Source of the DNA: an uncultured Clostridia bacterium
GTDB lineage: Bacteria > Bacillota > Clostridia > Lachnospirales > CAG-274
Assembly (NCBI GenBank): GCA_949948985.1
Contig: CATLIG010000004.1
Coordinates: 47,836 to 111,835 of the forward strand
DNA length: 64,000 nucleotides
Direction: 5' to 3'
The notes under the pieces were generated by a model, which did not search any database, was not told the origin of the DNA, and was given only the letters and a program-made list of their open reading frames with translations. The position numbers and the translations under genes are program-made. Of this stretch, positions 4,711 to 63,571 are shown one piece after another (position 1 is the first letter of the stretch; the number at the start of each line of letters is the position of its first letter).

Positions 4711-4810
4711 TTATAGTGAAACAATAAAAGAATAAACAATTAAATTTTAATAAACCTGATATATAAAATTTTTTATTGTTTAGCACTAAAAATTTTGTAA
4801 ATCGCTATAG
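4711..4810. repeat. Family A intergenic palindromic repeat, copy 1
   Basis: This imperfect palindrome of about 100 bp begins with TATAG...AAACAATAAAAG and ends with TTTTATTGTTTAG...CTATAG. It fills the gap between hisS and aspS. The inverse complement aligns with copies at 10555, 19503 and 50426. Confidence 0.75.
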
Positions 4811-4871
4811 ATATATAAATAATTTCGAAAAACCTGCTAAAATCTATATTCAAAAATCAATATTTCCTTTT

Positions 4872-6131
4872 TTAAATTCTTTTGAGTAATTCCTCTTTAA
4901 TGTCAGATAATTTAATTTCCTCCTGACTGCTTTCTTTCATATTTTTAAGATTAATGCTATCATTTAAAACCTCGTTTTCGCCGATAACAACCGAGTATTT
5001 AGCGTTAATTTTGTTAGCATATTTAAGCTGAGCTTTTACACTTCTTTTAAGAGTATCATATTCGGCGCAAATACCGGATTTTCTGAGTTCATATCCAATA
5101 CTCTGCGCTTTTAAAAAACCTTTTTCCCCGATGGAGCCGATATAAATATCAATGTTTTTTCCAATAAACTCAATAAGCTTTTGAGACTTTACAAGCATCA
5201 TAATCCGCTCAAGACCCATAGCAAATCCTACAGCTCCTGTTTGTGGTCCTCCGCACTCGCCAATCAGATTATCATATCTTCCTCCACCGCATACAGTTCC
5301 TTGAGAACCTATTTCATTTGACACAAACTCAAAAACAGTTTTTGTATAATAATCAAGACCTCTTACAATTTTAGGATCAACAGTATAAGGAATCCCCATA
5401 TTGTCAAGATTTGTTTTAAGTGCCTCAAAATGCGCCTTACACTCTTCACCAAGACAATCAAGTACAGATGGAGCATTTTCAAGAATATTTCCGCATTTTT
5501 CATTTTTGCAGTCAAGTACACGAAGAGGATTTTTCTCAAATCTTTCACGACAATCGCCGCATAAATCAGAAATATTGTTTTTAATAAAATCTTTCAACAC
5601 TTCATTATACCGCTTACGGCACTCATTACCGCCAAGACTGTTTATTTTAAGCTCAATATTTTTTACTCCGATTTTATTTAGAGCTTCATATGCTATAGAA
5701 ATGGCTTCCGCGTCACATGCCGCATCGCAAGAACCAAAAATCTCAACTCCAAACTGATGAAATTGTCTTTGCCTCCCTGCCTGTGGTCTTTCATATCTAA
5801 AAGCCGGAGTTATATAATACATTTTAGTAGGCTGAGGGTCGGCATACATGCTGTTTTCAACAAAAGCTCTCGCTGCTCCCGCTGTTCCCTCAGGTTTTAA
5901 TGTAACACTCTCACTTCCTTTTTTTTCAAGAGTATACATTTCCTTTGTGACAATATCCGATGTTTCCCCAACACCTCTTTGAAAAAGTTCTGTTTGTTCA
6001 AAAACCGGAGTTCTTATTTCAGATACGCAGAACCTTTCACAAATCTCTCTTAAAATCCCCTCAACTTTCTGCCAAATGAAAATATCCTCTCCATAAATAT
6101 CTTTTGTACCTCTCGGAGCTTTAAAACTCAT
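4872..6131 (-). CDS. hisS: Histidyl-tRNA synthetase
   Basis: At 419 aa this matches a class II HisRS. Motif 2 (FRYERPQAGRQRQFHQFG) and the histidine-binding motif GLDYYTKTVFEF are both present, and a C-terminal anticodon domain follows. A region near residues 180-230 carries four cysteines in CxxC-like pairs, which may bind zinc. The ATG lies about 12 bases after an AGGAGG site. It is upstream of aspS, a common Firmicute order. Confidence 0.97.
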   Translation of the reverse strand: MSFKAPRGTKDIYGEDIFIWQKVEGILREICERFCVSEIRTPVFEQTELFQRGVGETSDIVTKEMYTLEKKGSESVTLKPEGTAGAARAFVENSMYADPQPTKMYYITPAFRYERPQAGRQRQFHQFGVEIFGSCDAACDAEAISIAYEALNKIGVKNIELKINSLGGNECRKRYNEVLKDFIKNNISDLCGDCRERFEKNPLRVLDCKNEKCGNILENAPSVLDCLGEECKAHFEALKTNLDNMGIPYTVDPKIVRGLDYYTKTVFEFVSNEIGSQGTVCGGGRYDNLIGECGGPQTGAVGFAMGLERIMMLVKSQKLIEFIGKNIDIYIGSIGEKGFLKAQSIGYELRKSGICAEYDTLKRSVKAQLKYANKINAKYSVVIGENEVLNDSINLKNMKESSQEEIKLSDIKEELLKRI

Positions 6132-6194
6132 TTTATATTAATCCTCCTTTTTCTCTCAATCATATAATAAACAGTGTTGACATAAATAATCATC

Positions 6195-6285
6195 TTTTAT
6201 AGATAACAATAAAAGAATAGACAGATAAAATGAAATCTGATATATCAAATAATTCTTTTATTATAGTTTTCAACTAGATAATTCT
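6195..6285. repeat. Family A intergenic palindromic repeat, copy 2
   Basis: It contains TATAGATAACAATAAAAGAA and a matching TTCTTTTATTATAG arm. It lies between hisS and the ribbon-helix-helix gene, directly after the latter's stop codon. Confidence 0.65.
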
Positions 6286-6287
6286 TA

Positions 6288-6464
6288 TTAATGCCGCTTA
6301 TCATTATCAATAAGTTTAATAATACCTTCTTGCATCACTTGTGTAACGGTCTTGTTTGAGGACTCGGCATATCTTTTTACTTTTGCATAGTCCTCTGGCT
6401 TCATTCTTACGCTTACTACTTTTTCTTTTTTAGTTTCCGCCTTTGGACGACCTGATTTTGACAT
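6288..6464 (-). CDS. Ribbon-helix-helix DNA-binding protein (CopG/Arc-like), 58 aa
   Basis: A short basic N-terminus is followed by a predicted beta strand (KVVSVRMKPEDYAKVKRYA) and two helices, the layout of a CopG/Arc/MetJ-type dimeric repressor. An AAGGAGG site precedes the ATG. A consensus promoter lies immediately upstream, so the leader is only about 14 nt. No toxin gene is adjacent, so an antitoxin role is not supported; an orphan transcriptional regulator or plasmid-derived remnant is possible. Confidence 0.85.
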   Translation of the reverse strand: MSKSGRPKAETKKEKVVSVRMKPEDYAKVKRYAESSNKTVTQVMQEGIIKLIDNDKRH

Positions 6465-6485
6465 ACTAATTCCTCCTTAAGAACT

Positions 6486-6514
6486 ATTATATTTTTGTAT
6501 GACAAAAAAGTCAA
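6486..6514 (-). promoter_or_regulatory. Sigma-A promoter of the ribbon-helix-helix gene
   Basis: TTGACT and TATAAT are separated by exactly 17 bp. The predicted start is just before the ribosome site, leaving an unusually short 5' leader. Confidence 0.8.
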
Positions 6515-6553
6515 TAGAAAATAACAGATGTTTACACTTAAAAAATATATATA

Positions 6554-6605
6554 AGACCTGTTCTAAACCACCTCAGTATCGCTTGACAGACCTTTTTCTG
6601 TATGT
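6554..6605. repeat. Family B terminal repeat, solo end (copy 1)
   Basis: This stretch starts AGACCTGTTCTAAACC and continues to GCTTGACAGA, nearly identical to the ends of the complete element at 38481-38637. No second end was found nearby. The rest of the gap from 6465 to 6803 is AT-rich and holds a promoter but no further gene. Confidence 0.7.
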
Positions 6606-6803
6606 CTATTAAAAAACGCCAATACGATTCTGTAAATAAGTATGGTATTTTTATTTTTATCGTATTAATTTAAAAAATTTCTATAAAATATATATAAATA
6701 TATTTTTAAATAACTTTTAAAACAATATAACAAATCATATAAATATATCACGCAAAAATATAAACAAATAAATTCTTACAAATAAAATTGGAGGAATAAA
6801 TTT

Positions 6804-7841
6804 ATGAACTTTTTTGCAAATATTCAAAATATATACTTTTTAGGACTTTCATATATAATCTTAGCTGTAATAGTTGTAGTTACCTCTATTTACCTTTCAA
6901 AATATGTAGATGCCCTTGATAAAAAGACAAAACTTTCAGGTGCTTTTATAGGAGGTGTAATACTAGCCGCTATAACATCTCTTCCTGAACTTTTTACAAG
7001 CTTAACAGCCATATGTGTATTAAATCAGCCAGAACTTGTTCAGGGTAATGTATATGGAAGTAATATATTTAATCTAACAATAATAGCCATATGCGTATTA
7101 CTGGCTGTAAAAACATTTCGTAACTCAAAAATTTCAAAATCACATATAAATACGTTAATATTTACTATAATAATGTTTATATGTTGTCTTATTGGAATAT
7201 ATATTTCAGATAAATATTCTTTTTCAATCGTAGTTTCAAGATTGAGTATAATTTCAATTATAATTATAATTTTATATATCATAAATATTGTGCTTGTAAA
7301 AAATGATAACTTATCAGCAGGAAATGAAAATGACAATATTACACTTACAGTAAAGCAAATTATTATACGTTTTATATTATTGGCGATACTTTTGGTAACT
7401 GTAAGTATACTTTTAACCCAAGTAACAGATATTTTATCATCAAGACTGGAATTGGGCAAAACTGTTTCAGGAGCTATATTTTTAGGAATTGCTACGTCCC
7501 TGCCCGAGTTTACGGCATCAATAAACCTTGTACGTCTTAAAAATTTCAATACTTCTGTAGGAAATATAACAGGAAGCAATCTCTTTAATTTTATAATACT
7601 TTGTTTCGGTGACTTTCTTTATAATAAGGGAAGTATTTATAGTGTACAACAAAAAGAACTTGCTGATTTTACAGCAATAACAAATATAAACATAGGCTCA
7701 ATAGTACTAATTATATTTTCGATAATATCGACAATACTTTCAATATTTATACTAAAATTTAAAAAAAGTATGTTTATTTCAATAACTCTCTCTTTTGCTC
7801 TAATATCGTCATATATTTTAAGCATAATATTTTCAATGTAA
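6804..7841 (+). CDS. Sodium/calcium exchanger family (CaCA, YrbG-like) membrane protein
   Basis: The 345-aa protein is very hydrophobic, with about ten membrane segments. It holds both inverted alpha repeats of the cation/Ca2+ antiporter family: AAITSLPELFTS...GNVYGSNIFN in the first half and GIATSLPEFTAS...GNITGSNLFN in the second. The conserved Glu of each repeat coordinates the transported cation in this family. It should exchange Ca2+ (or another divalent cation) for Na+ or H+ across the cell membrane. GGAGG lies eight bases before the ATG. It converges with mntP, another divalent cation exporter, and they share a terminator. Confidence 0.9.
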   Translation: MNFFANIQNIYFLGLSYIILAVIVVVTSIYLSKYVDALDKKTKLSGAFIGGVILAAITSLPELFTSLTAICVLNQPELVQGNVYGSNIFNLTIIAICVLLAVKTFRNSKISKSHINTLIFTIIMFICCLIGIYISDKYSFSIVVSRLSIISIIIIILYIINIVLVKNDNLSAGNENDNITLTVKQIIIRFILLAILLVTVSILLTQVTDILSSRLELGKTVSGAIFLGIATSLPEFTASINLVRLKNFNTSVGNITGSNLFNFIILCFGDFLYNKGSIYSVQQKELADFTAITNINIGSIVLIIFSIISTILSIFILKFKKSMFISITLSFALISSYILSIIFSM

Positions 7842-7859
7842 AATTCTAAAACTTTTATT

Positions 7860-7905
7860 CATCTATAGGAAAACAATAAACATGATATTTTAACAAAATC
7901 GGATA
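7860..7905. repeat. Family A repeat, half copy 3
   Basis: ATCTATAGGAAAACAATAAA followed by a degraded centre (GGATATACAAAA) resembles one arm of the repeat. The other arm may be the half copy at 7999, separated by the terminator hairpin. Confidence 0.45.
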
Positions 7906-7910
7906 TACAA

Positions 7911-7947
7911 AACAGGCAGAGATTAAAAATATTAATCTCTGCCTGTT
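7911..7947. terminator. Bidirectional rho-independent terminator
   Basis: A perfect 16-bp stem (AACAGGCAGAGATTAA and its complement) with a 5-nt loop sits between the convergent CaCA and mntP genes, with T-rich DNA on the plus-strand side. Confidence 0.85.
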
Positions 7948-7998
7948 CTGTTATATTTATTTTTACTTTATTACACTTTCAAATCAAAATATAAACCT

Positions 7999-8031
7999 GT
8001 TTAATAAAATAATCCTTTAATACATTAAAAC
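7999..8031. repeat. Family A repeat, half copy
   Basis: TTTAATAAAATAATCCTTTA matches the core of the family A copy at 50426-50517. Confidence 0.45.
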
Positions 8032-8055
8032 AACTCCATAAAAATAAATATAACT

Positions 8056-8640
8056 TTATGCTTCCAATAAATGCTCAGCAAGAATTTTAATTCCAATGGC
8101 GATAAGAATAATACCTCCAACTCTTTCAGCGTTTTTCTGAATAATATCTCCTATTTTTCTTCCCAAATAAACACCTGTATAAGAAATAACAAATGCCACA
8201 ATCCCAATAACCGATGATGCTCCCCATATATTAAGACCACTTTCCGCATTATCCAAAAAAGCAAAACTTACACCTACCGCCAAAGCGTCAATACTTGTCG
8301 CGACAGCAAGAATAATCATATTATAAAATGAGAGTATATTTTTTTCACTCACAACATTTTCATTTTCATTTTTAAACGATTCTAAAAACATTTTTCCACC
8401 AATAATAAATAAAAGAATAAACGCAATCCAATGGTCAAAATTTTCTATATATTCTTTAAAATTTTTTGCGCAAAACCAGCCAATAACAGGCATAATAAAT
8501 TGAAAAATACCAAAAAACAAACCAAACTTTAAAGCGTGCTGAAATTTTATATTTTTAATAATTATACCATTAGAGATAGAAACCGCAAACGCGTCCATTG
8601 CAAGACCTACAGCAATAAGAAATACCTCAGCTAAATTCAT
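8056..8640 (-). CDS. mntP: Manganese efflux pump MntP
   Basis: The 194-aa protein has six predicted membrane segments and the two internal repeats of the MntP (DUF204) family: GLAMDAFAVS near the N-terminus and ATSIDALAVG in the second half. The aspartates in these repeats are the conserved cation ligands. It should export Mn2+. The start is taken at the ATG at 8640, not the ATG at 8655, because the latter overlaps the GGAGG site that serves the inner ATG. No yybP-ykoY riboswitch could be recognised upstream. Confidence 0.92.
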   Translation of the reverse strand: MNLAEVFLIAVGLAMDAFAVSISNGIIIKNIKFQHALKFGLFFGIFQFIMPVIGWFCAKNFKEYIENFDHWIAFILLFIIGGKMFLESFKNENENVVSEKNILSFYNMIILAVATSIDALAVGVSFAFLDNAESGLNIWGASSVIGIVAFVISYTGVYLGRKIGDIIQKNAERVGGIILIAIGIKILAEHLLEA

Positions 8641-8730
8641 TTTATTTTCCTCCATATAATATACAAAAATTTTACAGTAATTACGGAATGCTATAAAATT
8701 TATTTTTTTATAATAATTTGTAAAAACCTC

Positions 8731-8759
8731 TTGAAAAACTATAAAATATATGATATACT
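8731..8759 (+). promoter_or_regulatory. Sigma-A promoter of tRNA-Thr
   Basis: TTGAAA, a 17-bp spacer and TATACT end 11 bp before the first base of the tRNA. Confidence 0.85.
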
Positions 8760-8770
8760 AATTTTATTAA

Positions 8771-8843
8771 GCCAGAATAACTCATCCGGTAGAGTACTTC
8801 ACTCGTAATGAAGAAGCGGAGGGTTCGAGTCCCTTTTCTGGCT
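8771..8843 (+). tRNA. tRNA-Thr (anticodon CGU)
   Basis: The 73-nt sequence folds into a cloverleaf: acceptor stem GCCAGAA/TTCTGGC, D stem ACTC/GAGT with GG in the loop, anticodon stem CTTCA/TGAAG with loop CTCGTAA, and a T stem closing TTCGAGT. The anticodon CGT reads ACG. The discriminator base is T, CCA is not encoded, and a T-tract follows directly and can end transcription. Confidence 0.93.
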
Positions 8844-8935
8844 TTTTTTGTATATATTTAAATTTATAGCAATTCCCAACAATATAATAATTAGTAAATT
8901 ATATTATTATTAATAATATTTATTCTTTGTATTAT

Positions 8936-9022
8936 ATCAATTCACAAAACTTTTAGTTGGAAACAATAAAAGAATTTTTTAATATATTAGATTCATTGAA
9001 ATTTAATTGTTCATTCTTTCAT
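8936..9022. repeat. Family A intergenic palindromic repeat, copy 4
   Basis: TATCAATTCACAAAACTTTT then GGAAACAATAAAAGAA, with the right arm TTGTTCATTCTTTCATT. It abuts a family B element, and the two fill the 358-bp gap between tRNA-Thr and the gene at 9202. Confidence 0.65.
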
Positions 9023-9024
9023 TA

Positions 9025-9186
9025 GGCTTGTTCAATAACCTCTGCAACACTGATTGACAAATCTTTTTTAGCCATATTCGCCTAATTTTTTTGAAAGACC
9101 TTTCAAATATTTCTCCAAAAATCAAAATTAATCTAACAAAAAAATCTCTTGTCAATCATTACTGCTTAGATTATTGAACAGTTCCA
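9025..9186. repeat. Family B MITE-like element, copy 2
   Basis: This copy is about 160 bp. The left end is GGCTTGTTCAATAACC...TGATTGACAAATC. The right end, read on the other strand, is GGAACTGTTCAATAATC...TGATTGACAAGAG. The ends are inverted repeats of about 40 bp. No coding capacity was seen. Confidence 0.75.
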
Positions 9187-9201
9187 TTGTTTCATTATAA
9201 G

Positions 9202-9474
9202 TTATTGAAACTTCTCCCAGTATTTTTTTTCATTTTTTTGTTCAACTGCATTATAATATTCATCAACAATATCAAATATTTGACTTTCATCTTTAATAAG
9301 ATAATATTTTTTACCGGAAATTTCTTTTATATTTTTCTTTTTTATTTCAGAATTTTCAAGCCAATTCATAAAATCTTTTTCCCAATCTGACGCTTTTTTT
9401 TCACCAAGTTCCTCATAGCTTAAAATTTCTTCTTTTATCTCATAAATGAAATCCTCAATAATCATCTTTATCAT
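9202..9474 (-). CDS. Hypothetical protein, 90 aa, downstream of ruvB
   Basis: The acidic, lysine-rich protein begins MIKMIIEDFIYEIKEEIL and has no signal peptide or membrane segment. It is likely helical and cytosolic. It starts 12 bp after ruvB, and its AAGGAG site overlaps the ruvB stop region, so it is probably cotranscribed with ruvB. I do not recognise the family. Confidence 0.7.
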   Translation of the reverse strand: MIKMIIEDFIYEIKEEILSYEELGEKKASDWEKDFMNWLENSEIKKKNIKEISGKKYYLIKDESQIFDIVDEYYNAVEQKNEKKYWEKFQ

Positions 9475-9486
9475 AAAAAAACTCCT

Positions 9487-10509: not shown

Positions 10510-10554
10510 TTTAATTCACCTCTATAATAAATAATAAATATAACTGCGTTAAAT

Positions 10555-10660
10555 CTATAATAATTCACAAAATTTTTAGTACGAAACAATAAAAAAATTC
10601 ATTAATATATCAGTTCTTATTAAAGCTTTTCTGTTCATTATTTTATTCTCTCGTTATAAT
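10555..10660. repeat. Family A intergenic palindromic repeat, copy 5
   Basis: CTATAATAATTCACAAAATT, then CGAAACAATAAAAAAATTC, a centre with AATATATCAG, and a right arm TTCATTATTTTATT. It separates ruvA from ruvB, which are normally contiguous. Confidence 0.75.
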
Positions 10661-10777
10661 TTTCTTAATAAGTAAAAGATGTGCTTAGATGGCATTTTCT
10701 ACGTTTCCGGGGAGGTCTATTATTTAGCCGCAAAAAAGTTAAACTATTCCCAACAGCAAATAACAAACAAAACTGTT

Positions 10778-11395: not shown

Positions 11396-11518
11396 TCTAT
11401 AGTTCTCCTTTACAAAATTAAATTATTCTTTGATAATTATACTACAAACGCAGATAAATTAAAAGTTATAAATAATTTTTTTACATATAATTTATAATAA
11501 CAAATAAAACCGATTTAC

Positions 11519-11600
11519 CTATAGCGAAACAATAAAATAGTGGAAAGTAATATTTGATAAATATTACTTCGTACTAAAAATTCTGAAAATCACTGTAAAC
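11519..11600. repeat. Family A intergenic palindromic repeat, copy 6
   Basis: It starts CTATAGCGAAACAATAAAAT and ends with TTCGTACTAAAAATTCTG...CACTGT, the complement of the long-arm variant. Its centre contains an AGTAATATTTGATAAATATT palindrome. Confidence 0.7.
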
Positions 11601-11616
11601 AATTAAAAATAATTAC

Positions 11617-11649
11617 AAAACCCCCTCAGACAAACTTTTCTGAGGGGGG
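11617..11649 (-). terminator. Rho-independent terminator after the RseC-like gene
   Basis: A perfect 10-bp stem (CCCCCTCAGA and TCTGAGGGGG) with an 8-nt loop is followed on the minus strand by TTTTG. Confidence 0.85.
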
Positions 11650-11667
11650 ACATTGTAAAAAATATTT

Positions 11668-12120: not shown

Positions 12121-12305
12121 TTAAAAGGACTCTGCCGAGCCGGCTATCAATAAGGCTTAAAACCTTAAAACAAGGTGGTTGTAGCACTTTACGCTTCCTT
12201 GTTTTGCATACAATGTGCAACCTACAAATCCACATAAAGAAAACTATTATCCCGTAGAAATCGTGTTGGTTATAAACAATCAAAGATTCGTACTCGGAAG
12301 AGTTA
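12121..12305 (-). ncRNA. ssrS: Probable 6S RNA
   Basis: A consensus extended promoter drives an RNA of about 185 nt with no credible reading frame. The two ends pair: ACTCTTCCGAG (12293-12303) with CTCGGCAGAGT (12129-12139), 10 of 11 pairs. The middle forms a long irregular hairpin (TTGTA/TACAA, GCAC/GTGC, TATGC/GCGTA), and an AAGG...CCTT hairpin lies in the 3' strand of the central bubble. The 3' end runs into TTTT. This closing stem, open centre and long terminal helix fit 6S RNA, which binds the sigma-A holoenzyme, and aspS/hisS proximity fits Firmicute 6S loci. Another structured regulatory RNA cannot be excluded. Confidence 0.6.
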
Positions 12306-12310
12306 CTATT

Positions 12311-13964: not shown

Positions 13965-14044
13965 AATAGAGCTGTTCAATACTAAGTGATAACAATTACA
14001 AACCTTTTTGTAATTATTATCACTTAGTATTGAACAGCTCTATT
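13965..14044. repeat. Near-perfect 80-bp palindrome, collapsed family B derivative
   Basis: Two 38-bp arms (13965-14002 and 14007-14044) differ at a single position and leave a 4-nt loop. The arm sequence AGCTGTTCAATACTAAG...AATTACAAA resembles the family B ends at 62661 and 9025, so it looks like two terminal repeats without the middle. It lies between convergent genes and may also stop transcription in both directions. Confidence 0.85.
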
Positions 14045-14045
14045 A

Positions 14046-14110
14046 AGATAATCCTTGAATATACCATATTTTATAAAAGTTTATTATGATAGTTATTTTA
14101 TTGTTTAAGT
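14046..14110. repeat. Family A repeat, partial copy
   Basis: AAGATAATCCTTGAATATAC, then CATATTTTATAAAAGTTTAT and TTATTTTATTGTTT match the centre and right arm of the copy at 50426-50517. Confidence 0.6.
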
Positions 14111-18511: not shown

Positions 18512-18708
18512 ATCATCACCTACCAAAAACAAAACAGATGTATAAAATAAAAATTTTACATAGCCTTATAAAATCAAAAACACACCTATTAATAATAATA
18601 AACATTTTTTTATATAAAGTCAATTATTTATACAAAATTTTTTTAAAATTTTTAAAAAGTCGGTTAAATACAACTGTCTAACTCTATAAAGATTTGTAAG
18701 ATTTTCAA

Positions 18709-18785
18709 ACAAACCAATAAAATAATTCTTTAAATATATCGCATGTTAATGTATTATTTTTCTATAAATGTAAATTTTATTGTAA
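18709..18785. repeat. Family A repeat, diverged copy
   Basis: AAACCAATAAAATAATTCTT, then TAAATATATCGCAT and a TTTTATTGT end. It fills part of the AT-rich gap between comF and the PAS-GGDEF-GAF gene. Confidence 0.55.
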
Positions 18786-19486: not shown

Positions 19487-19502
19487 ATTGATTCCCCATT
19501 AC

Positions 19503-19598
19503 AGCAATACATAAAATTTTCTACAAGAAAACAATAACAAAATCCTTAATATATCATCTTTATTAAAATTTGATTATTATTGTTTCACTACAATTAGC
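19503..19598. repeat. Family A intergenic palindromic repeat, copy 7
   Basis: ACATAAAATTTTCTACAAG, then AAAACAATAACAAAATCCTT, AATATATCAT and the right arm TGATTATTATTGTTTCACTA. It lies between rplQ and comF. Confidence 0.75.
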
Positions 19599-23518: not shown

Positions 23519-23600
23519 AACTATAACAAAACAATAAAATACTTTGCCTGCTTTGTAAAACTAAAAACAGAATTAAATAAATTATTTTGTTGTTTTGTCT
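23519..23600. repeat. Family A repeat, decayed copy inside the ribosomal cluster
   Basis: CTATAACAAAACAATAAAAT starts the left arm, and TTATTTTGTTGTTTTGTC resembles the right arm. It lies between map and the KOW gene, so it must be read through. Confidence 0.5.
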
Positions 23601-23618
23601 TCGCAATTTTATTAATTG

Positions 23619-24368
23619 CTAAACAAGAGTCAAAATTTCCGGCTCATCGTCAGTAATAAGTATAGTATTTTCATAATGAGCGGATAATCTTTTATCTTTT
23701 GTAACAACAGTCCATTTATCAGCCAAAACCTTGACCTTAAAATCACCGGCGTTAATCATAGGCTCAATGGCAAGAGTCATACCTTTACAAAGTCTTGGGC
23801 CGCGGCTGTTAGTTTTATAATTTGGAATTTGAGGAGCCTCGTGCATATCAGAGCCAATGCCATGGCCAACATATTCACGTACAACCGAAAAACTGTTTAA
23901 TTCAGCGTATTGCTGTATAGCTGCGGAAATCTGATGTAAATGATTACCTTCTTTTGCAAACTTTATACCTTCAAAAAAACTTTGTTTTGTAACCTCAATA
24001 AGTTTTTTTGCCTCATCAGAAACCTCACCGACAACAAAAGTTCTGGCAGCATCGCCATGAAAACCATTAATATAGGCTCCAACGTCAACACTGATAATAT
24101 CGCCGTTTTTAAGAGTTCTTCTTCCTGGAATACCATGAATAACTTCCTCATTTACCGATGCGCATATTGAAGCTGGGAACCCCCCATATCCTTTAAAAGA
24201 AGGAACAGCTCCTTTGCTTCTTATATAATCCTCGGCAATTTTATCAAGCTCTCCTGTGGAAATACCTGCATGAATTTTAGTTTCCAAAAGATTGAGAACT
24301 TCTCCGGTAATACGACCTGCGATTTTCATATATTCAATTTGTTTTTCATTTTTAATAGTAATAGCCAT
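23619..24368 (-). CDS. map: Methionine aminopeptidase type I
   Basis: The 249-aa pita-bread-fold enzyme holds the metal ligands in DVGAYINGFHGDAARTF, VGHGIGSDMHEAPQIPNY and the late LAIEPMI and ENTILI blocks. It removes the initiator Met from nascent proteins. It lacks the N-terminal SH3-binding zinc extension. It starts 5 bp after adk. Confidence 0.98.
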   Translation of the reverse strand: MAITIKNEKQIEYMKIAGRITGEVLNLLETKIHAGISTGELDKIAEDYIRSKGAVPSFKGYGGFPASICASVNEEVIHGIPGRRTLKNGDIISVDVGAYINGFHGDAARTFVVGEVSDEAKKLIEVTKQSFFEGIKFAKEGNHLHQISAAIQQYAELNSFSVVREYVGHGIGSDMHEAPQIPNYKTNSRGPRLCKGMTLAIEPMINAGDFKVKVLADKWTVVTKDKRLSAHYENTILITDDEPEILTLV

Positions 24369-35647: not shown

Positions 35648-35873
35648 AAAAAAAGTCCCCTCCTTTTCGTACTTTTTTAATTTACTCAGTACGACAAGCG
35701 GTGACTGCACACACAATATTTTGACGAAAGTATCCCTGCATACAGATACAGTTCTCAAAAATCTATTTAGTACAGTGACCTTGCCGCCCGGTTTCATGAA
35801 CTGGACATCGCTCCGCGAAAAAACCTGTATATTATACAGCAACCTTTCGCCTCAACGCTCTTAATGTCACAAC
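35648..35873 (-). promoter_or_regulatory. Leader of the S10 operon, about 225 nt, structured
   Basis: Between the promoter and rpsJ lies an RNA more GC-rich than other gaps. It contains a CTGTATAATATACAG palindrome near 35830, a GC-rich block (CATGAAACCGGGCGGCAAGG) and a hairpin TCGTACT/AGTACGA just before the ribosome site. Such leaders in other bacteria bind a ribosomal protein (L4 in E. coli) to control the operon. Which protein binds here is not visible. Confidence 0.6.
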
Positions 35874-35908: not shown

Positions 35909-36060
35909 TATCTTTTTTTACTTTTTTACAAAATAATTAAAATCGTAAAATTACATTCCGGCACAAAAATCAACTTTTAAAGTTTTAAAGAAAAAATTTT
36001 TAAGATTAATTTCCGTGCGAAGTTATTAAACAAGCCTAATATATCAAATAGCTTATTTAT

Positions 36061-36160
36061 AAGAAAACAATAATAATATTAGACCTGTTTAATAAAAACT
36101 TATACATAAAGGAATCCTTTTATTGTTTTGCATTGAAAATTTTAAGAATTGCTATAGCGG
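36061..36160. repeat. Family A intergenic palindromic repeat, copy 9
   Basis: AAGAAAACAATAATAATATT at the left, a centre with TTAATAAAAACTTATAC, and the right arm TCCTTTTATTGTTTTGC...AAGAATTGCTATAG. It is one of the clearest copies of the right arm. With the S10 leader and promoter it accounts for the 518-bp gap before rpsJ. Confidence 0.8.
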
Positions 36161-38418: not shown

Positions 38419-38480
38419 AACATAAAAAATAATTTATATACACCAAACTTATTTACCTTTAAAGTTATTTGACTTAAAAA

Positions 38481-38637
38481 AGACCTGTTCTAACCTCCCG
38501 CAGCAACGATTGATAAAAGATTTTTTTCAGACTAGGCCTGATTTTTACAGTAACTTTTCAAATGTTTCAAAAAAATCAGACAAAGTATGACGGAAAAAAT
38601 TCTGTCAAGCAATACTACAGTGGTTTAAAACAGGTCT
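38481..38637. repeat. Family B MITE-like element, complete copy
   Basis: This 157-bp copy has clear ends: AGACCTGTTCTAACC...GATTGATAAAAGA on the left, and on the other strand AGACCTGTTTTAAACC...GCTTGACAGAATT. The terminal inverted repeats are about 45 bp. The middle CTGATTTTTACAG...AAAAAAATCAG is itself a hairpin. It codes for nothing, which fits a miniature inverted-repeat element mobilised in trans. Confidence 0.85.
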
Positions 38638-38728
38638 AATAAAAGAATATAGGCAATCAACTTGAAAATGAGCAAAAGGAAAGGAGATAAAAATTATTTT
38701 CACAAGGCAGTGGAATAAGAGCGTAGCC

Positions 38729-50407: not shown

Positions 50408-50425
50408 TATCAAAACCTCCTATAA

Positions 50426-50517
50426 GCATTCGAAAATTTTTCAGGTCGAAACAATAAAATAATCCTTTAAACATCATATTTTATAAAAATCTACTATAGC
50501 ATTATTTTATTATTCCA
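50426..50517. repeat. Family A intergenic palindromic repeat, copy 11
   Basis: CATTCGAAAATTTTTCAGG, then CGAAACAATAAAATAATCCT, CATATTTTATAAAAATCTAC, and CTATAGCATTATTTTATTATT. It splits leuC from leuD, which are usually adjacent. Confidence 0.75.
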
Positions 50518-50522
50518 CTATA

Positions 50523-51782
50523 TTATACATTTTCAGGACTTGTAATCTTGCCTGTAATAGCAGAAGCCGCGGCAACGGCAGGGCTGCAAAGGTAAACCTC
50601 TGATTCAGGATGACCCATACGACCGATAAAATTACGATTTGTAGTAGATAAAGCTCTCTCACCTTTCGCCAGAATACCCATATGTCCGCCAAGACAAGGA
50701 CCGCAAGTAGGAGTTGAGAACACGCATCCGGCCTCAACAAAAGTCTTAGCTATACCCTCGTCAATACACTGCAAATAAATATTTTGAGTACCCGGAAGTA
50801 TAATAACCCTAAGTTTCGGATTAACTTTTTTGCCTTTAAGAATTTCAGCGGCTATCCTTAAATCGTCCATTCTTCCATTGGTACATGAACCTATTACAAC
50901 CTGGTCAATCTCAATATCTCCAGCTTCATCAATAGTCTTGGTATTTTCAGGAAGATGAGGGAAAGCAACCGTAGGTTTTAATGATGATAAATCAATTTCA
51001 TAAACTTCGTCATATTCAGCGTCAGCATCAGCCTCAAAAACCGTATATTCTTTGTCTGAATGTTCTTTAACATATTCAATAGTTTTTTCGTCAACAGGGA
51101 AAATACCATTTTTTCCCCCTGCCTCAATAGCCATATTTGCTATGGTAAATCTGTCGTCCATAGATAAATATTCAAGCCCATCGCCAACAAATTCCATAGA
51201 TTTATACAAAGCGCCGTCTACGCCAATCATACCGATAATATGCAGAATAATATCCTTACCGCTCACCCATTTTGCGGGTTTATTTTTAAGGACAAATTTC
51301 AAAGCCGAAGGAACTTTAAACCAAGCTACTCCTCTTGCCATACCAACGGCCATATCCGTACTTCCAACACCTGTTGAGAAAGCTCCCAAAGCTCCGTAAG
51401 TACAAGTATGAGAGTCAGCACCTATAACAACATCTCCGGGTACAACAAGTCCTGCCTCCGGCAAAAGGCAATGTTCAATACCCATCTGTCCAACCTCAAA
51501 ATAATTTTTAACGCCCTTTTCACAGGCAAATTCTCTAATAATTTTACAATGTTCAGCTGATTTAATATCTTTATTTGGGGTAAAGTGGTCAGGTACAATA
51601 GTTACCTTATTTTTATCAAAAACTTCTTTAACACCTATTTTATTAAACTCTTTAACAGCAACAGGAGTTGTTACATCGTTGCCGTGAACAATGTCAAGTT
51701 TAGCCTCAATAAGCTGCCCCGCCTTAACAGATTCAAGACCGGCGTGAGCCGCTAAAATTTTTTGAGTCATAGTCATACCCAT
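50523..51782 (-). CDS. leuC: 3-isopropylmalate dehydratase, large subunit
   Basis: The 419-aa protein has the [4Fe-4S] ligands in [15 protein letters not shown] and [20 protein letters not shown], plus [20 protein letters not shown]. It is the short, archaeal-type LeuC. It isomerises isopropylmalate and is likely shared with the citramalate pathway. ATG eight bases after AGGAGG, 17 bp after cimA. Confidence 0.97.
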
Positions 51783-55647: not shown

Positions 55648-55938
55648 AAAAAAACCCCGTCCCGCAAAAATGCTCTTAAGGGACGAGGATATACACGTGT
55701 TACCACCCTAATTCAATTCATATGAATTCTCAATAGGTTCAAAAAAACCTTAGCCTATAACGGGGCTTTTCCGATTACCTCTTACTAAAACTTTTCAGAG
55801 AAACAGCTCATGGGTGATAAATCCGATCATAAATTTATTGTCTCGCACCAAAACGACAACTCTCTGAAAATTTAACAAACCAAATTTTTGTCCCAATCAT
55901 AGCATTTAATATCAAATCAAATTTTTAAAATTTAATTC
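55648..55938 (-). promoter_or_regulatory. T-box leader, apparent isoleucine specifier (AUC)
   Basis: The leader shows stem I (TTTTCAGAGA pairing with TCTCTGAAAA), the TTTTGGTGCGAGAC distal motif, GATTTATCACCCATGAGC with ATC at 55816-55818 in the specifier position, and the T-box AGGGTGGTAACACG at 55696-55709. A terminator, CCTCGTCCC/GGGACGGGG, is followed by seven T (55648-55688). Uncharged tRNA-Ile should favour the antiterminator and switch on ilvN and the downstream genes. The codon call rests on position and context, not on a computed fold. Confidence 0.9.
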
Positions 55939-55944
55939 AATGAT

Positions 55945-56120: not shown

Positions 56121-56213
56121 TAATTTTTTCAACAAAATTCACAACAAAGGATTTTTCATACATATTGAATGCCTATCCGTTCTGGAAAAACAAATTAATA
56201 TAAAATAAATATT

Positions 56214-56258
56214 AGACTTCTTTCGAAACTACAGGTTGTATAGTTTTGAAAGAAGTCT
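56214..56258 (-). terminator. Hairpin downstream of apgM and the MCP remnant
   Basis: AGACTTCTTTC and AAACTA pair with TAGTTT and GAAAGAAGTCT (17 pairs, one mismatch) around a 7-nt loop. An AT-rich tract follows on the minus strand. Confidence 0.7.
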
Positions 56259-56281
56259 ATTTCAGTAAAAACAAAAATTCT

Positions 56282-57713: not shown

Positions 57714-57767
57714 TTTTCAAATCCTCCTAATATATTTAAAACAAAAAACAAAATCTTGCTATTATAA

Positions 57768-58874
57768 CTACTTTAAATTTTCAAAAACAAATTTTCCTGA
57801 TTTTGACAAATTACTTTCATTCCAATTTTCAGAATCCGCTCCTTCTGAAAGTGCCGCTGAAGATTCATTTTTATCACATAAAGACCAATTTATCCTGCTT
57901 ATTTCCTTTTCATCAAGATAATCAAGCCATTTTTTTGCCTCGTCCAGATAATTTCCATTATTTCCGCTTGCATCGCTTGTTCCCCATTCTGTCACAAAAA
58001 CAGTAGCTCCATTTGAGATAGCTTTTTCAATTTTACCTTTAAAATTATCAAGCTTGTGAGTTCCGGCATAAAAATGAAAAGCATATGCAACATTCTCATA
58101 ATCAAGTAAATCATCAGAAGCCCCATCAACATCCTGACTCCATGTATTTGTTCCCACGATAATAAGAGCTTCGGGAGAATTTTTTCTTATAACAGGTATA
58201 ATCTCTTCAGCATAAGGTTTAATATCATTTTTCCAATTAACTCCGTTAGGTTCATTACATATTTCATAAATCACAGCGGGATTTCCTGCGTATTTTTTTG
58301 ATACCTTATCAAAAAACTCAATAGCCTCTGATTTATGTTTCATAGGATTAGCGTCTGATAGCACGTGCCAGTCAATAACTGCGTACATATCAAGCTCTAT
58401 AGCGTTATCAACAGCATAATACAGTAGCTTTTCAGAGTTTTGTTTTTCATTCTCACCTGTTGTATATCCCCCGTATTCTTCAGTATACATTGCTGCCCGA
58501 AAAACATTGGCGCCGTATTCTTTAGTTTTTTCAATACTGTATTTATTTATAAATTTAGGAAACCATACTATACCATGACTGCTCATTCCTTTTAAAATGA
58601 CATTATTTCCATCTTTATCAATAATTTTTCCGCCGTTAATTTTTAGAGCGCCGTGTCTTAAAACGCCATCATTATAACCTTCAAAGCTTTCGATTGTTTC
58701 TTCTTGTATATTTTTATTTATATCACTGCCACTTGATTCTGTTGTTTCTGTATCCACAAAACCTTTTTCATAAGAATTTTTCACAGGCATACAGCCAATA
58801 ACTCCTCCGCAAAAAAATACTGCTATAAGACTAAACAGAAATAATGTTTTGTTCATAAAATTTATCTTCTTCAT
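57768..58874 (-). CDS. Lipoprotein glycoside hydrolase family 5 (endoglucanase-like)
   Basis: The 368-aa protein has a lipoprotein signal with Cys at 28 (VIGC), an acidic, Ser/Thr-rich linker to about residue 68, then a GH5 catalytic domain. NEP at 207-209 gives the acid/base (E208), TEWGTSD gives the nucleophile (E296), and RAAMY and DWHVL are conserved. It should cut beta-1,4-glucan (or mannan or xylan) at the cell surface. No carbohydrate-binding module or dockerin is present. Its ATG overlaps the stop of the mgtC-like gene (ATGA), so the two are coupled. Confidence 0.93.
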   Translation of the reverse strand: MKKINFMNKTLFLFSLIAVFFCGGVIGCMPVKNSYEKGFVDTETTESSGSDINKNIQEETIESFEGYNDGVLRHGALKINGGKIIDKDGNNVILKGMSSHGIVWFPKFINKYSIEKTKEYGANVFRAAMYTEEYGGYTTGENEKQNSEKLLYYAVDNAIELDMYAVIDWHVLSDANPMKHKSEAIEFFDKVSKKYAGNPAVIYEICNEPNGVNWKNDIKPYAEEIIPVIRKNSPEALIIVGTNTWSQDVDGASDDLLDYENVAYAFHFYAGTHKLDNFKGKIEKAISNGATVFVTEWGTSDASGNNGNYLDEAKKWLDYLDEKEISRINWSLCDKNESSAALSEGADSENWNESNLSKSGKFVFENLK

Positions 58875-59560
58875 CTAATTTCCTCCGCATATACAACACT
58901 GTTTAAAAGATTAATTTCAGAAATAATTTCATTATGCTCAATATATTTTTTAATATTAATTTCGACATACACGCATAAATTGTCATTTTGTTTTCTTTCT
59001 TCAGATTTTTCAATAGAGCATAATAAAAAATCTTTTTCTTTAATATATTTAATAATTTCACTTGTTCCGATTTCTTTTTTAGTTTCAATGTACATTAAAA
59101 TAAATTTACTGTCTTTAGCCGCTCTTTCCTCAATTTTATACATAAATGTCGTTGATACAAAAATAATAAAAAAGCCAAACGATGCTCCGATAAAGAAACC
59201 GCTGCCCAAAGCGATTCCAACTGCCGCTGTCGCCCAAAGACTTGCCGCGGTTGTAAGTCCTTTTACTTGTTTTCCGTTTAAAATAATCATTCCCGCTCCC
59301 AAAAAACCAACACCGCTTATAACCTGAGATGCCATTCTTCCCGGGTCTGCCGTCATATTATGTCTTAAAAAAATGTACTCATTAGTAATCATAGCTAAAG
59401 CGGCGCCCGCACAGACAAGAGCAAATGTTCTTAGACCGGCATCTCTTTTTCTTAGTCTTCTCTCAAGACCTATTATTCCGCCAAACACAACAGCGAGAAA
59501 TAATCTTAAAAATATTGAAACGGCGTTAAACTCGCCTAAATACTCAATACATTGCTGCAT
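58871..59560 (-). CDS. MgtC/SapB-family membrane protein
   Basis: The 229-aa protein has four to five membrane segments, with RLFLAVVFGGIIGLERRLRK, the family GLRTFALVCAGAA and GVGFLGAGMII motifs, and a C-terminal ACT-like cytoplasmic domain (about 150-229). MgtC proteins modulate cell-wall or membrane physiology and F1Fo ATPase under Mg2+ limitation in pathogens; the role in clostridia is not established. It starts 12 bp after the sensor gene upstream. Confidence 0.9.
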   Translation of the reverse strand: MQQCIEYLGEFNAVSIFLRLFLAVVFGGIIGLERRLRKRDAGLRTFALVCAGAALAMITNEYIFLRHNMTADPGRMASQVISGVGFLGAGMIILNGKQVKGLTTAASLWATAAVGIALGSGFFIGASFGFFIIFVSTTFMYKIEERAAKDSKFILMYIETKKEIGTSEIIKYIKEKDFLLCSIEKSEERKQNDNLCVYVEINIKKYIEHNEIISEINLLNSVVYAEEIR

Positions 59561-59572
59561 AATATGATCTCC

Positions 59573-62479
59573 TTAATTTCTTCTTTCAATAGCATTTTTT
59601 ATTCTGTCTCGAAATTCGGGTTCCGGCATAGGCTTTGCGTATAAAAAACCTTGAGCATAATAACAGCCTATACTTTTAAGAAAAACAGCCTGCTCATTTT
59701 TTTCTACGCCCTCGCAAATAACATTCATATCAAGAGCTTTTGCCATTTCAACAATTTTACATATAATTTTCTGTGCCTTTTCGGAATTTTCAGACTCATT
59801 AAGAAATTCCCTGTCAATTTTAACAACATCAATAGGCATAGATTTAAGCATATTAAGAGAAGAAAATCCAGAGCCAAAATCATCAATAGAAACAGAAAAT
59901 CCAAGTTCTTTGATTTTATTTACAATTTCAAGAGCCGCATCCATTTCCATAAATAAATTTTCAGTAAGTTCAAGCTCAATATACTTTGTGGGAATATTAT
60001 ATTTTTTTATAAGATTTTCAATACGTTCAATGTAAAATGGATTGCTCAGATGTACTCTTGACTGATTTACTGAAATAGTAATAGGCTCTTTATCACTATC
60101 AATCCATTCTCTTATGATTTTAAAAACCTCTTCAAGAACAAAAAAATCAAGTTCAATAATAAATCCCTCTTTTTCAAAAACAGGAATAAACTCTCCCGGA
60201 TTCATAAATCCTTTTGTTTTTGAAATCCAGCGTACAAGAGCTTCAGCGCCAATAATTTTTTCTGACTTCATATCGACTTTGGGCTGGTAATAAACAGCAA
60301 ACTCGTGTTCCTCAAGAGCCCTTTCCATATTTTCCTCAATTTCTTTATATTGTATAATCTTATTCTCCATTTTTTTATCAAAAAAAACTACATTGTCATT
60401 TCTGTTGTTTTTCGCTTCTTTTCGTGCCATTTCAGCCATATCAATAGCGTTTACAACACTTACTTCGTTACTTGTTATTAGATATATACCACACTGAAAA
60501 TTTAATTTAAGAGCGATTCCCCCATCTTCATAATATCTTGTCTTTCCCATTACTTTTTTAAGAAACTCAAGATGTTCATTTTTTTCAGAGAAAGGAACCA
60601 TTACAATAAAATTATCCATATTTATTCTTGCGATAACACCGCCGTATTGGATTTCATTATTAAGATTATTTGAAATAAATTTCAAAACCCTGTCGCCGAC
60701 AAATCTGCCGTAATGTTCATTTACAACCCTAAATTTTGAAATATCAAAAGATATAATAGCGAAACTCCTTTGTTTAAAATCATTACTTTCTGTTTTTTTC
60801 GTAACTTCTGATATAAAACCATTCAAATTCCATATACCTGTTACTTTATCAATATAAGCCAAATCAAAAATATTTTCATCATATTTTCTTTTTAATTTTA
60901 ACACTCTGATAATAATTTTAATTCCAACAACAGCTATTATTAAAATTACTATCACAATTAACCAAAAGTATCTCTGTAAAAAATCAATCATACCTATATT
61001 ATTTTTATTAAATATTGTATGTTTGCTTATAATGTCATTAACTTCTTCCTGACTTATACTAGCGATTGCTTTATTCATTATTGTAAAAAGCGGCATATCC
61101 CCTTCTCTGCTTACTCCAAAGCAGACAGAGTGCTGAAATTCAGGATAATCCATTACAGATATATCATAATAATTATTTTCAGAAATAATTTTATCACCAA
61201 CATAGTTAATAATAAATGTAATATCTGCATCTCCGTTGTTAACAGCCTCTATGCATTCTTTTTCGGAATTATATAAAATCATATGCTTTGCGCTGTATTT
61301 TTCAAATAAAAATTTTTTGTTGAAAAAATAATTATCAACATAAGCAATTTTTAAAGTTTCCGGTTTCTCATCAACTTTATCTTTATTGATAATAGCATTA
61401 TATTTTAAACATCTGATATATGGAACAGACATTTTTATATCATTTTTTTCCGCCCAACTATAATCACAGAAAAAGTCACATATTATATCACAATCTCCCT
61501 GACGTACTTTCTGTATTGCGTCTTTATATGTTTCAGTTTTCTCAAACTCAATTTTAAAACCAGCCTTATCAGCGGCTTTTTTCATAATATCCGCGACAAT
61601 CCCCTCGTAAGACCCTGTTTCATCATTAAAAGAAGATAAAGGAGCCCTGTTGTTTGAATCAACAGCTTTAATAATATTATGAGATTTGATATACTCTTTC
61701 TCTTCTTCTGTTAATGAAAATTTCGTATTAGCCTTTTTCTCATAATATTTATTATAAATTTTTAAAAAATATGTATTATCGTTTTCAACAACTTTATGCA
61801 TAGCAGAATTAAGCTCATCCATAATTTCTGAGTTACTTTTGTCAGTAACAAAATAATATGGTTCTGAATCAAATTCAAAAAGAACATTATGTTTTTTAGT
61901 TGTCTGAATACTCATAGTAACAATAGCGTCTATTTTTCCATTATTAAACGCGTCAAATTTTTCAGCATATGTTTTAAACTTAATAATTTGAGGAGAAAAT
62001 CCTTTTTGTTTTGAAAGTTTATTAATAGAATCTTCCCAAAATTTCTCATCAACAATACCTATTCTCATTCCATTATAATTTTCAAAATCATTCGGATAGA
62101 ATTTAGTATTGTCTTCTTTTGTAACAAGAGCTTTGCTGCCATATCCGCCATTAATATCTGAATAATCTAAAAATGTCGTTCTCTCGTCCATATAAATACA
62201 ACTGTCAACAATATCCAATTCTCCATTTTTAAGCATATCAATACACTGGCTTCTGTCACATTTAACATACTCAAACTCCCAGTTTGTATACTTAGCTATT
62301 TCCTGAAAAACCTCATAACTGTATCCCGTTCTTAATCCTATATCATCAGTGTATATAAATCCTTCCATTTCATAATCAGGTATTTTAACTATTCTTTTCA
62401 GCGGCTCCGAATGCACAGCATTAAAAAACCCCAAACCAATAATAACTGTAAATAACAAACATAATAATTTTTTTAACAT
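59573..62479 (-). CDS. Periplasmic-binding-domain sensor / degenerate GGDEF / EAL protein
   Basis: The 968-aa protein has a signal peptide, then two solute-binding (type 3) domains at about 30-250 and 265-500, and a membrane segment near 508-530. A GGDEF-like domain whose signature is INMDNF follows, then an EAL domain. The EAL catalytic residues are intact (EALVRW, SVNQSR, ELELTENLF, DDFGSGFSSL, KIDREF, EGVEKNEQ, AQGF). It probably senses an amino acid or similar ligand and hydrolyses c-di-GMP. The start is the ATG at 62479 after AGGTGG; a GTG at 62491 lies within that site. Confidence 0.9.
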   Translation of the reverse strand: MLKKLLCLLFTVIIGLGFFNAVHSEPLKRIVKIPDYEMEGFIYTDDIGLRTGYSYEVFQEIAKYTNWEFEYVKCDRSQCIDMLKNGELDIVDSCIYMDERTTFLDYSDINGGYGSKALVTKEDNTKFYPNDFENYNGMRIGIVDEKFWEDSINKLSKQKGFSPQIIKFKTYAEKFDAFNNGKIDAIVTMSIQTTKKHNVLFEFDSEPYYFVTDKSNSEIMDELNSAMHKVVENDNTYFLKIYNKYYEKKANTKFSLTEEEKEYIKSHNIIKAVDSNNRAPLSSFNDETGSYEGIVADIMKKAADKAGFKIEFEKTETYKDAIQKVRQGDCDIICDFFCDYSWAEKNDIKMSVPYIRCLKYNAIINKDKVDEKPETLKIAYVDNYFFNKKFLFEKYSAKHMILYNSEKECIEAVNNGDADITFIINYVGDKIISENNYYDISVMDYPEFQHSVCFGVSREGDMPLFTIMNKAIASISQEEVNDIISKHTIFNKNNIGMIDFLQRYFWLIVIVILIIAVVGIKIIIRVLKLKRKYDENIFDLAYIDKVTGIWNLNGFISEVTKKTESNDFKQRSFAIISFDISKFRVVNEHYGRFVGDRVLKFISNNLNNEIQYGGVIARINMDNFIVMVPFSEKNEHLEFLKKVMGKTRYYEDGGIALKLNFQCGIYLITSNEVSVVNAIDMAEMARKEAKNNRNDNVVFFDKKMENKIIQYKEIEENMERALEEHEFAVYYQPKVDMKSEKIIGAEALVRWISKTKGFMNPGEFIPVFEKEGFIIELDFFVLEEVFKIIREWIDSDKEPITISVNQSRVHLSNPFYIERIENLIKKYNIPTKYIELELTENLFMEMDAALEIVNKIKELGFSVSIDDFGSGFSSLNMLKSMPIDVVKIDREFLNESENSEKAQKIICKIVEMAKALDMNVICEGVEKNEQAVFLKSIGCYYAQGFLYAKPMPEPEFRDRIKNAIERRN

Positions 62480-62655
62480 AAATTTAGCCACCTTGCGAAA
62501 ATTGTACTTTAATTAATAAACTTCTGTACACTTGTATTATTTTGCTGTAAATCAGCTTTTTTATAATTTCATAAAATCAATTATAATAACTTTTTTGACA
62601 AATTGCAATAGATAAAACATATAAATTACATTTTTCATAATATATAAAACGATAC

Positions 62656-62829
62656 TAAAAGCTGTTTAAAACTCTAAGTAATGATATTGACAAAAGATTT
62701 ATACTCAAATGAATCTTGATTTTTTCAGAAACTTTTCAAGCATTTCAAAAAAACTATGCAATATTTGTGTATAGGAAAAGATTTGTTAATTGGTATTATA
62801 TAGGTTATTGAATAGATTATTAGACCCAT
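62656..62829. repeat. Family B MITE-like element, copy 6
   Basis: The left end (AAAGCTGTTTAAAACTCTAA ... TATTGACAAAAGATTT), the middle (CTTGATTTTTTCAGAAACTT) and a right end with a nested GGTTATTGAATA palindrome make a decayed copy of about 170 bp. It fills most of the 400-bp gap between the sensor and lipoprotein genes; the rest is AT-rich with nothing visible. Confidence 0.65.
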
Positions 62830-62880
62830 TCAATAACCTGTTCAATATTAATATTTTCTCTGTCTTAAATGTGGTATTTC

Positions 62881-63522
62881 TTAAATAAATTTAAAAGTTC
62901 CAAGAAATTTATCAATATCACCTTCATAATCATCGTATAACTTTTTCGTATCAGCGTGATATAAAAATACATAAGCAAAATTATCGTCATAAATAAATAT
63001 TAAATCTTCTCTTGATTCAGACTCATCGCTTGTAAGAAGATTAGAATCGTCTATTGCGATTTTATTGCCATTTTTTTTACTTTTCAAAGCAATACCAGAA
63101 TTGTCTATCGGTTCAATCTTAATCCATTTTCCTTTTTTGCCTCCAATATTAACATTTGCTGTTTTAACAATTCCATTTTTCAATTCTTGAGCATATTTGT
63201 CAACAAGCGAACTTATATCTTTGCTTTCAGTGTCAATAGTATCCTTTCTTACTCCAAGCCATACATTTCCCTCTTCAGTGTTAAGCAGCATTTTTACTAA
63301 ATATCCATCCTCATCAACCTTAACATCCCATTTATCATAACACGCTATTTCAAAATCATTATTTTTGTATAATTTCTGTCCTTCTTTTTCCTGCAAATAT
63401 ACATAAACATCATTTCCACTATCTCCGCCATCTTTTTCATATATTACTTCACCGCTTTCAAAGTCACATCCTGAAAAAATAAATAATGCTGATGTGATAA
63501 CTGCAAATTTTTTTAACTTCAC
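62881..63522 (-). CDS. Lipoprotein of unknown function, 213 aa
   Basis: A GTG at 63522 after GGGGG opens a lipoprotein signal with the lipobox FSGC (Cys at 19). The mature part is a single mixed domain with charged, beta-rich stretches and no recognised motif. It is likely anchored on the outer face of the membrane. It is alone between two repeats. Confidence 0.8.
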   Translation of the reverse strand: MKLKKFAVITSALFIFSGCDFESGEVIYEKDGGDSGNDVYVYLQEKEGQKLYKNNDFEIACYDKWDVKVDEDGYLVKMLLNTEEGNVWLGVRKDTIDTESKDISSLVDKYAQELKNGIVKTANVNIGGKKGKWIKIEPIDNSGIALKSKKNGNKIAIDDSNLLTSDESESREDLIFIYDDNFAYVFLYHADTKKLYDDYEGDIDKFLGTFKFI

Positions 63523-63543
63523 AATAAAACCCCCAAATTCATT

Positions 63544-63571
63544 TATCTTTTATTATTGTTTTTCTATAAAT
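63544..63571. repeat. Family A repeat, half copy
   Basis: TTATCTTTTATTATTGTTTT TCTATAA is the right-arm end of family A. It lies just upstream of the lipoprotein start. From here to the window end (to 64000) the DNA is AT-rich with no gene; one promoter is listed. Confidence 0.5.

Follow-up and report, generated by a model that had tools for sequence, protein, structure and literature searches.

Among small repeats found between bacterial genes, the closest described counterpart of the element reported here is RUP of the pneumococcus, which measures 107 bp, is present in 108-110 copies and has been ascribed to the insertion sequence IS630-Spn1 by its ends and its TA targets (PMC2229807, PMC3049150). 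The pneumococcal repeats BOX, RUP and SPRITE are described as inserting into one another (PMC10969869). Here, we analyzed a stretch of 64,000 nucleotides, hereafter called the window, from an uncultured Clostridia bacterium of the lineage CAG-274 (assembly GCA_949948985.1, contig CATLIG010000004.1, positions 47,836 to 111,835), and a repeat in its gene gaps, family A. An earlier note on the same DNA had offered two readings of this repeat, a miniature element spread in trans or hairpins that shape mRNA ends. The first of these is supported by defined ends, a TA duplication at the resolved sites, unequal copy numbers between species, and IS630-type elements with similar ends. With a probability of roughly 0.88, family A is a miniature transposable element (MITE) whose movement depends on an IS630-type transposase acting in trans, and it is best read as a new IS630-type MITE family of the same kind as RUP, which would extend this kind of element to an uncultured genus.

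The likeness to RUP covers length (about 103 versus 107 bp), copy number (at least 142 versus 108-110), AT-richness, intergenic placement, IS630-like ends, the TA target, and the nesting of families A, B, C and D in one another, as with BOX, RUP and SPRITE. It was drawn by description, and the host is a different one. In contrast to RUP, the inner arms of family A are inverted and its outer arms unequal, and while RUP is reported as over-represented between convergent genes, family A is not (9 of 158 copies). Apart from a partner demonstrated in its own genome, it shares the features by which RUP was recognized and is therefore grouped with the RUP kind. Correia/NEMIS elements, compared by description only, are likewise of small size, have inverted ends and TA termini, and duplicate their target (PMC2229807). 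REP/BIME sequences associated with RAYT are numerous extragenic palindromes as well (PMC2817692); family A differs from them by its IS630-like ends and TA duplication, and the Y1 loci of the host lack family A arms. None of the open-access papers searched contains any of three sequence words taken from families A and D, and no described repeat family of this bacterial group was found there, as far as titles and the openings of abstracts tell.

Ends, insertion sites and a candidate transposase

Family A is an element of about 103 bp with a short left arm and a long right arm. Neither its centre nor its outer arms are symmetrical, and it therefore has a direction; by eye, the left side is about 21 bases shorter than the right side. 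From left to right, it consists of TATAGC, the arm GAAACAATAAAAGAAT, a centre that varies between copies and contains TTTAATAAAA and GATATAT, the return arm ATTCTTTTATTGTTTC, the outer arm GCACTAAAAATTTTGCGAATT, and GCTATA. The terminal inverted repeats TATAGC and GCTATA, together with the inner inverted arms, were found in the consensus and in full copies. The earlier description as a palindromic repeat is accurate for the inner arms only, and does not hold for the centre and the outer arms. The consensus from 15 copies, TATAGCGAAACAATAAAAGAATGAACAGATAATATTTAATAAAACCTGATATAT..AA..AATT.TTTTATTGTTTCGCACTAAAAATTTTGCGAATTGCTATA, is nearly identical to that from 104 full copies; as the initial model (R1) was built on 15 copies selected for exact arms, the conservation of the arms in the later sets is partly built in. 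By eye, the flanks have no common sequence past the family A end plus one more base. Full copies share a mean pairwise identity of 74%, with 97% for the closest pair.

For the analysis of target duplications, the flanks of the 104 full copies were joined with 0 to 8 bases kept and aligned to relatives, in the host genome and in three further genomes of the genus (G001, G002 and G003). The base-precise empty sites were obtained where family A copies lie inside other repeats. For copy L117, the flanks joined over a single TA align without a gap to two copies of repeat family B, L131 in G001 (20 of 21 bases at the junction) and L099 in the host (19 of 21), and two kept bases score best of all sizes tried (72 versus at most 65 bits, and 70 versus at most 66). 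Copy L109 aligns equally gapless to a copy of repeat family C, L023 (17 of 21), where two kept bases lead with 80 versus 79. The comparisons of L071 with L028 and of L029 with L189 and L193 are consistent with one duplicated TA, and a family D copy inside a family A copy (L100) fits the same duplication. As read from these alignments, a duplicated TA flanks family A at the few resolvable sites, with a clear result for L117, a narrow one for L109 and a consistent one for L029.

Corresponding gaps of the relatives were compared as well. The window gaps of the copies at 4712 and 10556 have counterparts in G001 and G002 that hold no copy, the counterpart for 10556 being short. From 59 loci of the genus mates, seven had both flanks in another locus (L227, L209, L223, L057, L212, L244 and L049/L041). 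The gap of the G001 copy L227 is empty in the host genome and that of L209 is empty in G003. For the gap of the G001 copy L223, none was called in the host genome, and by eye a short A-like left end lies at about window position 1440. At L057, L212 and L244, copies are present in both species in opposite orientation and were therefore taken as separate insertions. L049 and L041 share gap and orientation in two species, and the pair L052/L170, missed by the flank filter, has the same orientation at a nearly equal distance from the gene start; both pairs may have been inherited at the same place. The comparison of occupied and empty gaps proposed in the earlier note gave gap differences between species and, at a few nested sites, one duplicated TA, while most sites could not be resolved.

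With regards to the transposase, the four genus genomes contain 15 DDE_3 stretches, of which nine carry internal stops. IS630 family transposases were found in G001 and in the host genome, and the two best pass the cut-off of NCBIfam NF033545. The G001 element at L189 (1400-2579) spans 1,180 bases from TATAGCAATCCAATAAAA to TTTTGTTGGATTGCTATA, its gene is interrupted, and both of its ends read TATAGCAATCCAAYAAAA as inverted copies of each other. Each of these ends matches the left end of family A at 21 of 28 bases, a fit reached by only 3 of 1,550 other TATAG sites, some of which resemble family A remnants themselves. Two family A copies of the host, L029 and L074, match the L189 end at 24 of 26 bases, in register with the edge of the element, and when the 104 full copies were compared with two elements, 17 of 36 short matches fell no more than 50 bases from either end of L189. 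A putative IS630 partner lineage is, by these sequence matches, present in the genus. The link of family A to IS630 insertion sequences lies in the NF033545/DDE_3 transposase of the genus and the ends TATAGCAATCCAAYAAAA of one element; family A itself, at 103 bp, is too small for a transposase gene. In the host, the reading frame of the IS630 transposase shifts near an A run between the N-terminal and the catalytic parts; this frame shift is possibly programmed.

In the proposed mechanism, an IS630-type transposase would recognize and bind the common end (TATAG, followed by CAATAAAA in the arm), cut family A out and paste it into a TA. Copying probably continued until recently, judging by the closest pair, and the loss of insertions within genes would have left the copies concentrated between genes. 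The hairpin of a transcript is a predicted by-product of the two inverted arms.

Copies in the window and in related genomes

The earlier note had proposed a genome-wide search, and this revealed many further copies with a common consensus in the host and its genus. In each genome, at most 150 (or 97) candidates were scored. The host genome (3.29 Mb) holds at least 142 family A copies at E<=1e-3 among 149 matches listed at E<=1, and this is a lower bound because scoring stopped at 150 candidates. From stretches of the host genome with matches in the first search, 175 distinct copies or parts were retrieved after deduplication by sequence, 104 of them full length. Among the candidates scored in the genus mates, 90 copies in G003, 29 in G001 and 28 in G002 reached E<=1e-3, numbers that are affected by the 78% completeness of G003 and the 9% contamination of G001. 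Family A is present in all four genus genomes examined, with unequal copy numbers between the species. The species consensus sequences (14 G001, 14 G002 and 25 G003 copies) are closely alike except for the G001 arm GAACCAATAAAA and its partner TTTTATTGGTTC. In 37 more genomes, 21 from the family and 16 from the order, a search with stricter filters gave 36 without family A and a single weak match in G005 of the family. An exact-pattern scan of a species collection of public contigs, which may leave out the genome of the window, returned one match, CAOJPS010000249.1, which appears to be G002. Plasmid and phage records gave no match with one family A copy as the query.

Two family A copies of opposite orientation (780-880 and 4779-4879) flank tail and baseplate genes on L252, a contig with a viral classification, and phages may carry family A between hosts. 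No family A copy was present in the examined stretch of two further viral contigs, in which the L252 baseplate gene has a 57% relative. In G002 (L016:1-590), some 70 bases separate a family A copy from the preceding end of an open reading frame (ORF) of higher G+C that resembles, by eye, the C-terminus of a large serine recombinase.

Within the window, copies were defined as nhmmer profile matches at E<=5e-3, with a profile trained on the 104 full copies, some of which come from the window itself. The 11 copies or parts found in this way, the weakest at 13.2 bits, are listed below with the values of the covariance model (CM), which recovers nine of them at E<1e-3 and gives the parts at 14046 and 18709 E values of 0.05 or more.

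4712..4809, plus strand: full-length copy; CM 83.3 bits, E 3.3e-12; nhmmer E 5e-17 (from 4714); flanked by ORFs 2850-4649 and 4872-6131, both on the minus strand
6205..6272, plus strand: copy with left arm and centre, right outer arm unmatched; nhmmer E 5e-7; CM (6208-6262) E 2e-4
8933..9035, minus strand: full-length copy adjoining a copy of repeat family B; CM E 5.6e-8; nhmmer E 4.5e-14 (from 8935)
10556..10658, minus strand: full-length copy; CM 87.5 bits, E 5.9e-13; nhmmer E 1.6e-18 (from 10559)
11520..11597, plus strand: copy with shortened centre; CM E 3.6e-4; nhmmer E 4.5e-5 (from 11521)
14044..14107, minus strand: partial copy; nhmmer E 0.001, 15.4 bits versus a shuffle maximum of 11.6; CM not significant
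18691..18747, minus strand: decayed partial copy, weaker than all the others; nhmmer E 0.005, 13.2 bits versus a shuffle maximum of 11.6; CM E 0.22
19500..19592, minus strand: full-length copy; CM E 9e-6; nhmmer E 4e-7 (from 19502)
23522..23623, plus strand: copy absent from the list of the earlier note; CM E 3.2e-5; nhmmer E 5.5e-4 (from 23524)
36058..36156, plus strand: full-length copy; CM E 1.4e-9; nhmmer E 2e-12 (from 36065)
50421..50522, minus strand: copy filling almost the entire gap from an ORF ending at 50413 to an ORF starting at 50523; CM E 2.4e-7; nhmmer E 1.7e-11 (from 50425)

All ten positions given before were recovered, two of them (14046 and 18709) weakly, and the copy at 23524 is additional. 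The estimate of about 15 copies is reduced to 11, as the stretches at 11625, 42529 and 55815 stay at chance level with 8.7 bits or less. The statement that the copies sit only between genes stands for the window with one qualification: with ORFs of at least 100 amino acids considered, all lie between them except the copy at 23522-23623, which overlaps the end of ORF 23619-24368 by 2-5 bases. The G+C content of the nine copies with E<1e-3 is 0.16-0.23, compared with 0.327 for the window. By eye, a decayed family A left end (TTTACAGCAAAACATAAAAATAATTT) was also seen at about 1430-1480, in the gap where G001 carries the full copy L223.

Evidence against the MITE reading and alternative explanations

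Several observations weigh against a MITE moved by an IS630-type transposase. No intact partner element was found in the host, which is represented by a draft assembly of 235 contigs. The one host element recognizable as this type is divided between the ends of two contigs, C68 and C49 (L197 and L200), that share 127 identical bases; no left end was seen for it, and on the left it appears to continue as unrelated sequence. The end of this host element matches family A at 18 of 28 bases, a value equalled or exceeded by 37 of the 1,550 background sites, and the right end of family A is a poorer fit to the ends of the insertion sequences (13-16 of 28 bases). Concerning the TA duplication, a relative spanning the junction was available for 24 of the 104 copies, and the best number of kept bases is scattered, the size being clear only in the highest-scoring cases: one base in seven copies, two in six, none in three, four in three, seven in two, and three, five and eight in one each. 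For L071, a second relative (L170) favours one kept base. The corresponding gaps of the relatives provided no base-precise empty sites because they are too diverged. Finally, the arms contain 65 compensated double changes, more than in any of 500 shuffles (mean 33, maximum 47) and more than the 42 obtained when the right arm was swapped for that of the nearest relative.

These compensated changes, above the shuffles and the swap alike, also speak for an explanation in which the copies, whatever their origin, are kept for the RNA hairpins they encode, as terminators or stabilizers at mRNA ends. RNA of the consensus is predicted to fold strongly from either strand (-24.8 and -25.5 kcal/mol, with a z of -5.8 for the former and about -6 overall), and the pairs L041/L049 and L170/L052, should each be one insertion inherited by two species, would agree with such retention. 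However, only two of three single copies fold better than their shuffles, the window copy 10556-10658 being indistinguishable from them (z -0.2), and some of the covariation is inherited within subfamilies (pair 8/71, in the CG form). Gene context speaks against this explanation as well. Of the 175 copies, 170 lie outside ORFs of at least 80 amino acids, and the 158 with ORFs on both sides are divided into 115 tandem, 34 divergent and 9 convergent gaps, as predicted by gap length (73, 21 and 5%, an expectation that includes gaps which themselves contain copies). By the number of gaps (77, 14 and 9%, or 126, 23 and 15 of 164), convergent copies are if anything scarcer than expected. Of the tandem copies, 57 of 115 are closer to the upstream stop than to the downstream start, and 56 point with transcription and 59 against it. 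As placement follows gap length without orientation bias, it gives no support to a selected role at mRNA ends, nor to the second proposal of the earlier note as the reason why the repeat exists; we consider retention for RNA hairpins quite unlikely.

Somewhat less remote, although still doubtful, is selection on the pairing of the inner arms itself, with family A moving or persisting as a folded single strand. This is suggested by the 65 versus 42 compensated changes and by the matched G001 arm change of GAACCAATAAAA with TTTTATTGGTTC, and if true, hairpin formation would be part of the life cycle of an IS630-type MITE or of host RNA control. Copying errors that mend the palindrome, or inheritance in subfamilies, would leave much the same trace. 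Palindromic arms would also suit REP- or PATE-like elements that are moved as single-stranded hairpins by a Y1 transposase (IS200/IS605 or RAYT), and the host genome has four Y1_Tnp matches. Y1 elements are not known to insert by TA duplication with inverted ends, and these features at the resolved sites make such an origin very improbable; it was rejected, as the four Y1 loci lack family A arms and score no better than E 1.5 with the family A profile. The AT-richness of both the genome and the repeat could produce chance similarity among gene gaps. Here, the controls leave a negligible probability and refute it: the exact two-arm pattern occurs at 43 places in the host genome versus none for the reversed pattern, and in 20 dinucleotide-preserving shuffles of the window the sole match to the family A profile at E<=1 scored 11.6 bits, below all 11 window copies.

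Other repeat families and RNA features

Besides family A, the host genome contains further small repeats, including, in families C and D, ones with related ends. Family B is about 170 bp long with inverted ATTGACAA...TTGTCAAT and occurs in the window at 9021-9192, 38478-38647 and 62662-62812; further matches of about 70-80% were found in the host, G001 and G003, and shorter ones in G002. At several places, family A copies adjoin family B or sit inside it. Family C, of about 148 bp (L068:1858-2005) with ends TTACAGCAATTCC, is represented by no fewer than 40 copies at 75% or more, and a family A copy lies inside a family C copy at L040. Family D, searched with 163 bp, is G+C-rich in the middle and has ends of the form TATAGTCAATCAACTT or TATAGTCAATC; it has at least 40 host copies that are 94-100% identical to the query L164:478-640, and therefore has probably spread recently. 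IS630 stretches of a second type, with ends such as TATAGTTAAAGAACTT, are present in G001 and G003.

The genus accordingly contains at least four nested small-repeat families, and the order of their layers could record past transposition. By their ends, two of the repeat families resemble two IS630 lineages of the genus, and this would offer a matched set for studying what an IS630 transposase requires in a MITE. The repeats, which are also present in a contig classed as viral, are relevant for annotation.

Five matches to Rfam models were obtained in the window at the gathering score, none at any family A copy, and a known Rfam RNA was ruled out as the identity of family A on this ground. Among the RNA features recognized by Rfam are a 6S RNA (12125-12306), a T-box (55676-55909) and an S10 leader (35781-35863), all on the minus strand.

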